A model generated the notes under the pieces. That model had not been told where the DNA came from. It worked only from the letters and a program-made list of their open reading frames with translations, and did no database searches. Shown piece after piece: positions 14,856-18,457 of a DNA stretch of 36,518 nt. The translations under genes were made by a program, and so were the position numbers. Position 1 is the stretch's first letter. The number at the start of each line of letters is the position of its first letter. This stretch comes from a bacterium. Lineage in GTDB: Bacteria > Patescibacteriota > Minisyncoccia > UBA9983. The stretch covers positions 1 to 36,518 of the forward strand of contig JAADHB010000017.1 in assembly GCA_013152035.1 (NCBI GenBank). Reading direction: 5' to 3'.

Positions 14856-15037
14856 AATTTTTCTTATATAATAACTCTTCCGTCCACTGTCCAAGATTTT
14901 TAATAATTTTTAACTTTGACAGAGAGCGAAAAGAATTATTGGTTTTGCATAGCTCCCCGCGAACATCATAATAATAAGCTCGCGCGAAATAAATTAATTC
15001 GGCTCCGACTAAGCCATGTAATTCTATGCAATTAATT

Positions 15038-15077
15038 ATCTTCATCGAATTATCGTTAACGGCAATTCGATGAAGAT
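15038..15077. repeat. 14-bp perfect inverted repeat in the S-layer gene leader
   Basis: atcttcatcgaatt (15038-15051), 12-nt loop atcgttaacggc, aattcgatgaagat (15064-15077). Confidence 0.9.
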
Positions 15078-15172
15078 TTAGCCGACCTAATAAAATTTTC
15101 TAATCGACCTAATTCTCTTATAATTTAACAGCAAGCTAAAAACAAATTCGCGTTAACTTGCCGTTAATAACA

Positions 15173-15200
15173 ATTATAATGCCTAACAATAAACCTGCAA
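15173..15200 (-). promoter_or_regulatory. Predicted sigma70-type promoter for the S-layer-like gene
   Basis: Minus strand TTGCAG, 16 nt, TATAAT; predicts a leader of about 310 nt to the ATG at 14855. Confidence 0.6.
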
Positions 15201-15367
15201 AACGAAAGTGTGGATAACTTTCGCGGCCCACCGGGCAACCCTTTGTTCGCCTCGGCAAACGCGCCGTAAACAAAGGACCGATTTATCGCCTGACATTATT
15301 TGCTAGGTGAATACTAAACGATTCTCGGGAAAAAGTCAACAAGAAAAATAACGGAGAAAAAGCGGTT

Positions 15368-16090
15368 TTATCGGCTCTTCGCGATTGAATACACCCTCCA
15401 CCGCTTTTCTCCCTCCGCCTTTAAATCTCCGGATTTAACCAGATCAAAAAGGCATCTTTGCACGGTCTTGTCGCTGACGCCGTTAAAAAGGACCGCTATT
15501 TCCTTCAATGTTTTCTTTCCGTTCTTGGCGAGAAAATCCATAATAACACCCCTCTTTTCGCCGTTGGAGCGGGCGGCGCCCCTTAGCGGCTTTTGCTCCG
15601 CCTTTCGCCCGTTCGCCCCCGAAGCCTGCCTTTGGGGAGACGGCTTCGCCGACTTAAGTCTGGAGGCCTCATTTATAATCTCTTTAATGGCCTCAAATTC
15701 CGAACCCGCCAGCAGCTTCCTTTCGTAAATAAAATCAAACACTCCGTTTTTTAAAAGGTTGTTCAGGGCGATATACTCTTTTTTCAGTATCTCAAAATTA
15801 ATGTCCAATACGAATCCTCCGACGGAAGCGAGTTCAAGCGCGTGGATGATTTCGGAAATGCTGTTCAAGAGCTTGTTATAAACTCTATCGGACATTACCT
15901 CCCTATCGGACATTACGGACAGTAAATCAATATATAAACAAACGGCGCTGTTCCTGAGCGCCCACTTAATGGGTTCTTTGTCCGGATAAAGTTCCGTCAC
16001 CCTGTAAAGGGCGGAGGTGAGCTTTCGCATTTTGTCCGTTATGGTGTCCTTTATCGCCTGCGGATTTTGTCCGTTATCGTTCGTGTCCAT
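15368..16090 (-). CDS. Winged-helix/HTH DNA-binding protein (DeoR-like C-terminal HTH)
   Basis: C-terminus RGVIMDFLAKNGKKTLKEIAVLFNGVSDKTVQRCLFDLVKSGDLKAEGEKRWRVYSI; start ATG at 16090 lies 8 nt after TAGAAT. Confidence 0.75.
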   Translation of the reverse strand: MDTNDNGQNPQAIKDTITDKMRKLTSALYRVTELYPDKEPIKWALRNSAVCLYIDLLSVMSDREVMSDRVYNKLLNSISEIIHALELASVGGFVLDINFEILKKEYIALNNLLKNGVFDFIYERKLLAGSEFEAIKEIINEASRLKSAKPSPQRQASGANGRKAEQKPLRGAARSNGEKRGVIMDFLAKNGKKTLKEIAVLFNGVSDKTVQRCLFDLVKSGDLKAEGEKRWRVYSIAKSR

Positions 16091-16114
16091 TACGGCTCAT
16101 TCTAACGGACAAAC
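16029..16114. promoter_or_regulatory. Repeated operator-like motif (TTTGTCCGTTA) spanning the HTH gene promoter and its first codons
   Basis: attttgtccgttat at 16029-16042 and 16064-16077; inverted taacggacaaa at 16103-16113; variant tgtccatta near 16084. Confidence 0.75.
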
Positions 16115-16127
16115 ATAAAAGACGCAA
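16099..16127 (-). promoter_or_regulatory. Predicted promoter of the HTH gene
   Basis: Minus strand TTGCGT (16122-16127), 17 nt, TAGAAT (16099-16104); one operator copy overlaps the -10 and spacer. Confidence 0.6.
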
Positions 16128-16215: not shown

Positions 16216-18457
16216 ATGGCATCAAAAAAAGAAAAAAGGGGCGGAAAAGAAACGGCCGCCGGCAAATGGCGCGACAATCTTAAAGACGAAACGAAACATT
16301 CAATACTCGCCGTGTGTTCGCTCGCCCTCGCCTTGTTTTTTACGCTCGCGGCGTTCGGGAAGGCGGGAGTTTTGGGAGGGACCATTTTCAGGCTGCTGGA
16401 AATACTTTTCGGCGCGGGATTTTTTCTCGTCCCAACGGCTTTTTTTCTGGCGAGCATTTCCCTGTTCGCCTCAATCCGCCCAAACTTTCTCGGGAACACG
16501 ATAACGGGAATGCTCCTTTTTTTATTGTCCGGACTCGGGGCGGCGGACATAATGTTCGGAGCGAAAACCGGCGGATATGTCGGATTTATAATCTCATGGC
16601 CGCTTGTTAAATTTTTTGATTTTTGGGTGAGCCTGCTTTTGATGGCGGCGGTCTTTATCGTCTCCCTTTTGATAATGCTCAACACCTCAATCTCAATAAA
16701 AGTGAAGCGGAAGGAAGCTCCGGAGAAAGAAATTCCGGAGGCCGGCAAGCCCGGCAAAAAAGAGGAGGAGGAAATTGAAGAAGGAGAAGAGGAGCCGGAA
16801 GAGGACGAAAAAGAAAAAACCAATCCAGCGAAAAAAATCGGGCGGAAAATAATCGCCTCGGCGAAAACCGCGGCGAAGAAAGCGAAAAAGAAAGACGGCG
16901 AAGAAGAAGAGCTGGAATTGGAAACCGGCGGAATGAAATCCGGCGCCGACTTCACTCCTCCCCCGCTGGAGCTTCTGGAAAAGGACAAAGGCAAGCCGTC
17001 CAGCGGAGACATAAAGGCGAACTCAAACATCATAAAAAGGACCCTGAAAAATTTCGGCATAGACGTTGAGATGGGAGAGATAAATGTGGGCCCGTCCGTA
17101 ACGCAATACACCCTCAAGCCGGCGGAGGGGATAAAGCTGTCGCGAATCGTCGGGCTTCAAAACGACCTGGCTCTGGCGCTCGCCGCGCATCCCCTCAGAA
17201 TAGAAGCTCCCATCCCGGGCAGGCCGCTTGTGGGGATTGAAATGCCGAACAGCGCGAAAACGATAGTGGGGCTGGCAACCATACTCGCGGAGGACGCCTT
17301 CAAGAACTCTCCCCTGCCCTTGTTAATCGCCCTTGGGAAAGACGTTTCCGGCAAGTCGGCATTCTCAAACTTGGCGAAAATGCCCCACCTGCTTATCGCC
17401 GGAGCCACGGGGGCGGGAAAATCAATCTGCATACATTCAATAATAATAAATCTCCTGTACCGAAACTCCCCGGAATCATTGCGGATGATAATGATTGACC
17501 CGAAAAGAGTTGAGTTGACCATTTACAACAAAATTCCGCATATGCTGGGTCCGGTTATCACCGATCCGAAAAAGGCGATTCTTACGCTAAAATGGCTGTG
17601 CAGGGAAATGGATAAAAGATACGATGTCTTGCTGAAAGCGGGCGTTCGGGACATAGAATCCTACCATGAAAAAACGGCGAAGGAGCAGGCCGGCGCCGCA
17701 GCGGACGATGAAGAATTCATCCCTATGCCCTATCTTGTCATCGTCATTGACGAATTGGCGAGTCTGATGAACACATATCCTCGGGAAATGGAGACTTCAA
17801 TCGTGCGGTTGGCGCAAATGTCGCGCGCGGTGGGAATACATTTAATCCTTTCAACGCAACGCCCTTCCGTTGAGGTCATCACGGGGCTGATAAAGGCGAA
17901 TGTTCCGTCCAGAATCGCGCTGCAAGTGGCGTCGCAGATTGATTCAAGGACGATTTTGGATATGGCGGGCGCCGAAAAACTGCTCGGCAAGGGCGATATG
18001 CTGTTTCTCGCCGGCGTTTCTCGCCGGCGACACCGCCAAGCCGAAGAGAATCCAGGGCCCCTTTATTTCGGAAAAGGAGGTGAAACGGGTGGTTGATTAC
18101 CTCGCGGAAGAGTATAAGGACAGTGATCTTGAGAATATAAACAGTCCGTCGGAGGATGAGCTTAGCGGAAATGGCGGATCGGAGAACGGGGGCGGACAGG
18201 CGGCAATTGACCTTGATTTTGAAGACGAGGAAGATGACGACGACCTTTACGAGGACGCGCGGGAGCTGGCGATAAAGAGCGGAAAGGCGTCGGCTTCCTA
18301 TATGCAGAGGAAACTCAGGGTCGGATACGCGCGGGCGGCGCGGCTGCTGGATATGCTTGAAGAGCGAGGGGTTGTCGGTCCAGCCAACGGAGGCAGGGCG
18401 CGAGAGGTGCTGATTAAGGAGAGGGAGGAGGGAGAGGAAAATAACGCCGAATTCTAG
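16216..18457 (+). pseudogene. ftsK: DNA translocase FtsK/SpoIIIE, frameshifted at 18004-18029; ORF parts 16216-18096 and 17900-18457
   Basis: N-terminal TM segments; HLLIAGATGAGKSICIHSIIINLLYRNSPESLRMIMIDPKRVELTIYNKIPHMLGPVITD; YLVIVIDELASLMNTYPREMETSIVRLAQMSRAVGIHLILSTQRPSVEVITGLIKANVPSRIALQVASQIDSRTILDMAGAEKLLGKGDMLFL. C-terminal gamma domain (YMQRKLRVGYARAARLLDMLEERGVVGP) is in the other frame. Confidence 0.93.
18004..18029 (+). repeat. 13-bp exact tandem duplication inside ftsK
   Basis: tttctcgccggcg (18004-18016) directly repeated at 18017-18029; removing one copy restores the frame MLFLAGDTAKPKRIQGPFISEKEVKRVVDYL. Confidence 0.97.

Follow-up and report, generated by a model that had tools for sequence, protein, structure and literature searches.

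Regulators of the DeoR/GlpR type (HTH_DeoR, PF08220) commonly repress their own genes and can use several operators with looping. They pair an N-terminal helix-turn-helix (HTH) with a C-terminal sugar-phosphate sensor (DeoRC). The family described here shares their type of winged helix, which 23 of 30 orthologs match, but its HTH is C-terminal and preceded by an N-terminal helical bundle, and Pfam scans of the protein and its orthologs found no sugar-phosphate sensor domain. The predicted fold of this bundle (residues 10–115) resembles the S23 protein of 23S rRNA intervening sequences and the DGR protein Avd (PF05635; 2GSC, 2RLD), relatives that crystallised with five chains. In contrast to these, the family is fused to a winged helix, gives no PF05635 match (30 members, E 0.01), and showed no connection with rRNA insertions or retroelements.

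Noc, RacA and ParB organise chromosomes site-specifically, as multivalent proteins bound to clustered short sites close to oriC or parS. By analogy, the present system shares short-site clusters near oriC/parS and a putatively multivalent binder with these, but the family has no ParB-type DNA-binding domain by Pfam or NCBIfam and, unlike them, has promoter-phased, putatively autoregulatory operators. Plasmid iterons with an autorepressing Rep protein offer another likeness, since there too site arrays lie beside the gene of the binder and partly over its promoter. Iterons, however, are regular direct repeats at an origin, whereas the array here is irregular in spacing and orientation, which makes the label "iteron" used in the initial annotation inapt; the protein has no Rep domain, and its gene lies beside ftsK and recA with dnaA on another contig. 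No phage or plasmid homologue of the gene was matched, and a phage or plasmid origin was rejected on this ground.

A cluster of 9-bp sites spans the start of an HTH gene

The window, the whole 36,518-bp stretch of DNA analysed, contains an HTH gene read divergently from ftsK. The features of the locus are as follows.

15368..16090, minus strand: putative autorepressor gene, 240 aa, with S23/Avd-like helical bundle, linker and winged helix (ORF, orthologs, AlphaFold2)
15746..16063, minus strand: N-terminal four-helix bundle, residues 10–115 (model, Foldseek, profile match)
15371..15565, minus strand: C-terminal winged HTH, residues 176–240 (alignment, Pfam HTH_DeoR, Foldseek winged-helix matches)
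16122..16127, minus strand: −35 element TTGCGT, at 17-bp spacing to the −10 (counterpart TTGCAT in several family orthologs)
16099..16104, minus strand: −10 element TAGAAT, with the ATG 8 bp downstream (promoter calls)
16103..16111, minus strand: putative operator TGTCCGTTA, overlapping spacer and −10 (motif match, promoter calls)
16084..16092, plus strand: putative operator TGTCCATTA, spanning the start codon and the presumed +1 (motif match)
16068..16076, plus strand: putative operator TGTCCGTTA, within the coding sequence (motif match)
16045..16053, plus strand: putative operator TGTCCTTTA, within the coding sequence (motif match)
16033..16041, plus strand: putative operator TGTCCGTTA, within the coding sequence (motif match)
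15913..15921, minus strand: weak variant TGTCCGTAA (motif match)
15904..15912, minus strand: putative operator TGTCCGATA, in-frame MSDR repeat (motif match)
15886..15894, minus strand: putative operator TGTCCGATA, in-frame MSDR repeat (motif match)
15802..15810, plus strand: putative operator TGTCCAATA, within the coding sequence (motif match)
16216..18096, plus strand: ftsK, conserved divergent neighbour, no operator at its start (Pfam FtsK_SpoIIIE E 9e-61, synteny)

The array is real and stronger than first reported. Every repeat copy listed by the initial annotation is present at its place: TTTGTCCGTTA at 16031–16041 (+), 16066–16076 (+) and 16103–16113 (−), and GTAATGTCCGATAG, as its reverse complement, at 15885–15898 and 15903–15916; the copy at 15913 also exists, though only as a weak variant. 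Three further copies lie at 15802 (+), 16045 (+) and 16084 (+), the last covering the start codon. The repeat unit proper is an asymmetric 9-mer, TGTCC-D-W-T-A. Matches to TGTCCNWWA number 13 in the window, nine of them inside the 310 bp from 15802 to 16111 and four in the remaining 36 kb, a clustering with a Poisson tail of about 2e-19; this motif was refined after looking at the window, and the ortholog loci provide the independent replication. On these grounds chance clustering was rejected as the origin of the array. Exact copies of the full 11-mer TTTGTCCGTTA number just four across the 592 kb of the genome, and three of these belong to this array; Rfam found no RNA element in the region.

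The gene and its sites are conserved across Paceibacteria

Among 142 genomes of the same class, orthologs were found in 60 by protein sequence search and in 95 by profile search. A scan of named genomes yielded 80 orthologous loci, all Paceibacteria-type wherever the lineage was named, from Campbell-, Terry-, Niyogi-, Giovannoni-, Taylor-, Zambryski-, Ryan-, Vogel- and Yonathbacteria. The initial annotation had proposed searching the genome and its relatives for the motif, and clusters indeed recur at orthologous loci, far above control counts: across these 80 loci, 264 sites fall in the gene or the 120 bp before it, where the flanks predict 3.4 and the motif in reverse gives 3. A set of 30 loci, partly overlapping the 80, gave 129 sites versus 3.2, and the motif also topped an unbiased k-mer ranking. 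Site positions vary among orthologs, falling upstream, in the N-terminal part or mostly at 50–70% of the ORF, the part that codes for the disordered linker. The densest TGTCC case is a Yonathbacteria ortholog (L166:5779-6777) that carries 11 operators, among them copies in mixed orientations late in the ORF.

Taking all the evidence together, we consider it quite probable that the array consists of operators of the protein encoded by the very gene it covers, an autorepressor with further clusters elsewhere. Judging from the ortholog searches, this regulator is class-wide in Paceibacteria and previously undescribed and unnamed; our literature search found no description of the regulator or the motif.

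The sites are phased on the core promoter

The window promoter reads TTGCGT-[TGTCCGT]-TAGAAT, with a site inside the spacer, and its proximity to the ATG suggests that the HTH-gene mRNA is probably leaderless. As the initial annotation had placed it, the copy at 16103 covers the spacer of the minus-strand promoter TTGCGT-17-TAGAAT, and two of its bases also belong to the −10. Within the window's own family the promoter follows the scheme TTGCAT-N9-TGTCCNT-TAKAAT with the ATG close downstream, while that of Taylor- and Zambryskibacteria takes either the form TTGCAA-TAAAGGACA-N8-TANNNT-TAAAGGACA or the form TATAATGGACA, in which the site is fused to the −10. Sites recur at −17, −7, +2 and +5 to +7 relative to the −10. 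They overlap 44 of the 52 called promoters, against 27.8 expected at random, a figure somewhat inflated by the operator itself supplying TA/TAAT letters to some −10 boxes; the −35 hexamers, found at the correct spacing, are independent of this bias.

Conserved putative operators thus lie over the gene's own core promoter, as expected of an autorepressed transcription factor. The promoter-phased upstream copies are best read as a means of autorepression: bound in the −35/−10 spacer, over the −10 and at +1, the protein would exclude RNA polymerase and so repress its own gene. Sites within the gene would raise valency and may permit looping or a roadblock. The suggestion that the encoded HTH protein regulates its own gene is well supported by the comparative evidence as a whole, comprising conservation, promoter phasing, selection at the DNA level, co-occurrence of gene and motif, and the different arrays of divergent homologues.

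The accompanying suggestion, that the array might also control the divergent ftsK, found no support. Of 53 loci, 46 have no site within 50 bp of the ftsK ATG, the closest one lying on the HTH side, and co-control was dropped. Conserved synteny places recA beyond ftsK. On the other flank, downstream of the HTH gene, 14895–15367 of the window is non-coding and bears an inverted repeat (CTTCATCGAATT...AATTCGATGAAG) with no Rfam match, as well as a single DnaA-box-like TGTGGATAA at 15209.

The protein is predicted to tether a winged helix to an S23/Avd-like bundle

The AlphaFold2 monomer model (mean pLDDT 83.6) comprises a four-helix bundle, a low-confidence linker and a winged helix. Foldseek comparison of the bundle with 2gsc and 2rld returned modest matches (TM (target) 0.73–0.79, rmsd 1.7–2.9, E 0.004–0.05), and a profile match to 2gsc had an E-value of 0.04. 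Both entries represent the S23/IVP fold, with five chains each, and the S23/IVP family is akin to the Avd protein (PMC10053308). Pfam HTH_DeoR matches reach a best E of 7.5e-9 among the orthologs; the window protein itself falls below threshold, with no Pfam match over cut-off and no NCBIfam match. The ortholog alignment shows invariant winged-helix residues at K208, Q211, R212, G227, R230, W231 and Y234.

The bundle probably assembles into a ring-like multimer, from which flexible linkers would extend winged helices that bind TGTCC-D-W-T-A; the multimer is a fold-based guess. DNA-binding domains on flexible tethers would tolerate irregular spacing and mixed orientation, with avidity raising occupancy, and a tethered multimer would thereby explain why asymmetric sites in irregular order suffice. 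The initial annotation had called the regulation cooperative, which would fit the predicted multimer.

Further clusters lie at yraN/parS and in comFC

Paired clusters occur at four places in the window's genome: at the HTH gene, at yraN/cca (contig C16), at comFC beside pilM (C18, 7 sites) and on C28, upstream of a secreted-protein gene. Across genomes, yraN is the most recurrent distal locus (51 sites versus 11 in the control), followed by comFC (28 versus 1). Sites in comFC are nearly always mid-gene (nt 360–541 of the coding sequence), far from the promoter and mainly in the window's own family, and drop from 23 to 1.7 after codon shuffling, which indicates selection at the DNA level. We propose that the same protein probably binds these two additional conserved clusters, one beside yraN at parS near oriC, the other inside comFC. 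Arrays of 3–7 operators in mid-comFC were seen at L040:4050-4199, L043:3908-4021 and L253-L256, with a divergent pilM operon adjoining. Single-genome clusters near genes for secreted or surface proteins (L041:3956-4036, L044:3917-4142, L045:3961-4016, L055:4025-4058, L060:4198-4290) are possible lineage-specific targets.

The identity of these loci raises the possibility, a doubtful one in our estimate, that the protein is a regulator of natural transformation whose targets are yraN (a helicase-associated nuclease), comFC (ssDNA handling) beside the pilM operon, and itself. The site counts at both loci and the position of PilM beside comFC favor it, as does the link of YraN and ComFC to natural transformation that is cited in PMC12455585. 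Yet comEC (22 genomes) and dprA (18 loci) have no sites, which led us to reject a full com regulon, and the comFC array occupies the middle of the gene rather than its promoter. The yraN locus, moreover, coincides with parS, so the cluster there may not concern yraN.

This coincidence brings in another reading, which we judge unlikely: a chromosome-organising or segregation factor comparable to Noc, RacA or a centromere protein, for which the main conserved arrays, beside ftsK/recA and at the ori-proximal parS cluster, would be nucleation sites bridged by a multimer and autoregulation a by-product. In 90 kb of yraN loci, where operator clusters also lie, the parS-like GTTTCANNTGAAAC was counted 35 times, and not once in 997 kb of the other loci compared. 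Strict parS occupies one contig position per genome; in each case examined, all of them except one, this position is the yraN locus. In the window's own genome two near-matches flank the C16 array. In most genomes tested dnaA sits at the GC-skew minimum and the parS/yraN locus lies 10–42 kb away (about 130 kb in G122); the HTH gene itself adjoins ftsK and is near recA. Against this reading, sites at the HTH gene are phased on a promoter, as for a repressor; yraN arrays are also found in genomes lacking strict parS (G006, G008, G122); nothing in our analysis places the comFC arrays close to oriC; and arrays at parS/yraN could simply control yraN. That the second array is oriC itself was rejected given the skew minimum at dnaA. 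In many Paceibacteria genomes almost every parS-like site falls in the yraN/cca locus (L039:1218-3352; L056, L058, L059, L065-L093, L223-L249), which often carries DnaA boxes (TTATCCACA pairs) as well.

Sites track the gene, and some divergent homologues carry other arrays

Pattern searches of whole genomes, in which a reversed-pattern control was near zero throughout, found at least one close site pair in 38 of the 49 genomes that match the profile strongly, versus 7 of 93 others (p about 1e-17), leaving 11 genomes with a strong homologue and no paired sites. The approximately seven genomes with paired sites and no strong homologue include G014 and G022, where the pair is at yraN, and possibly reflect assembly gaps; they are also what could be said for the improbable alternative that the sites serve a different regulator, with the HTH gene happening to be under its control. 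This alternative must contend with sites that are most numerous in the coding sequence of the HTH gene itself, whose presence tracks that gene, and that differ in several divergent homologues.

Several divergent homologues with altered residues at the invariant QR and KRW positions have arrays of other sequences, located within or next to the homologue's gene. G098 (L364, reverse strand, ORF nt 214–540) has 13 copies of TTCGGCAA in one orientation and in frames 0, 1 and 2 inside its gene, and G020 has CATTTCC around the start of, and directly after, its homologue gene. In G046 and G017 the homologue genes contain TGCGGAA, which keeps largely to a single frame and could be protein-driven. Changes in the site thus seem to go along with changes in the protein, and this is the strongest indication we have that the sites are bound by the encoded protein. 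Separately, G016 (L353:1845-2104) contains a dense, mixed-orientation array of about 10 copies of TGGTGACAC; lying ~350 bp beyond the gene of a divergent homologue, this GGTGACA array was left out of the count. Copies of ATTCCCG in G102 were set aside as a likely generic inverted repeat.

Selection acts on the DNA of the coding sequence

The two copies of TTTGTCCGTTA within the window gene are read in different codon frames, as a frame check confirmed, and in the ortholog loci sites occur in both orientations and several frames, with 89 copies in upstream DNA. Shuffling of synonymous codons only, which preserves each protein and its codon usage, reduced coding-sequence sites from the 174 observed to 26±4.5, from which it follows that selection acts on DNA. 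The claim that conservation is not protein-driven therefore holds for the array as a whole, but not for the 15885/15903 pair taken alone, which lies in one frame and encodes a repeated MSDR. That pair, and relatives' linkers rich in NGQ, KGQ and IGH that the site can encode, are what speaks for the repeats arising secondarily from repetition in the protein or from a linker of low complexity, a highly improbable explanation that the shuffling refutes for the whole array and that may hold for single copies.

Discussion

Gene and cell-cycle regulation in Patescibacteria is little known and has been stated to be open (PMC11665869). Our analysis defines, from sequence alone, a regulator family, its probable motif, a promoter architecture and conserved target loci, all directly testable in vitro. 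It also points to an unusual form of multivalent DNA recognition, with selected operators inside coding sequence, often where the protein's own disordered linker is encoded. A broader picture, which we put forward as speculative and think rather unlikely as a whole, is that of a Paceibacteria-wide multivalent hub: five winged helices tethered to an S23/Avd-type ring would bind irregular arrays in coding sequences, repress their own gene, and tie the ftsK-adjacent locus to ori-proximal parS and to comFC. If true, such a hub would connect gene control in ultrasmall bacteria with both the segregation of their chromosome and the uptake of DNA. Paceibacteria are tiny and mostly uncultured, and the site clusters offer a testable way into their gene control.
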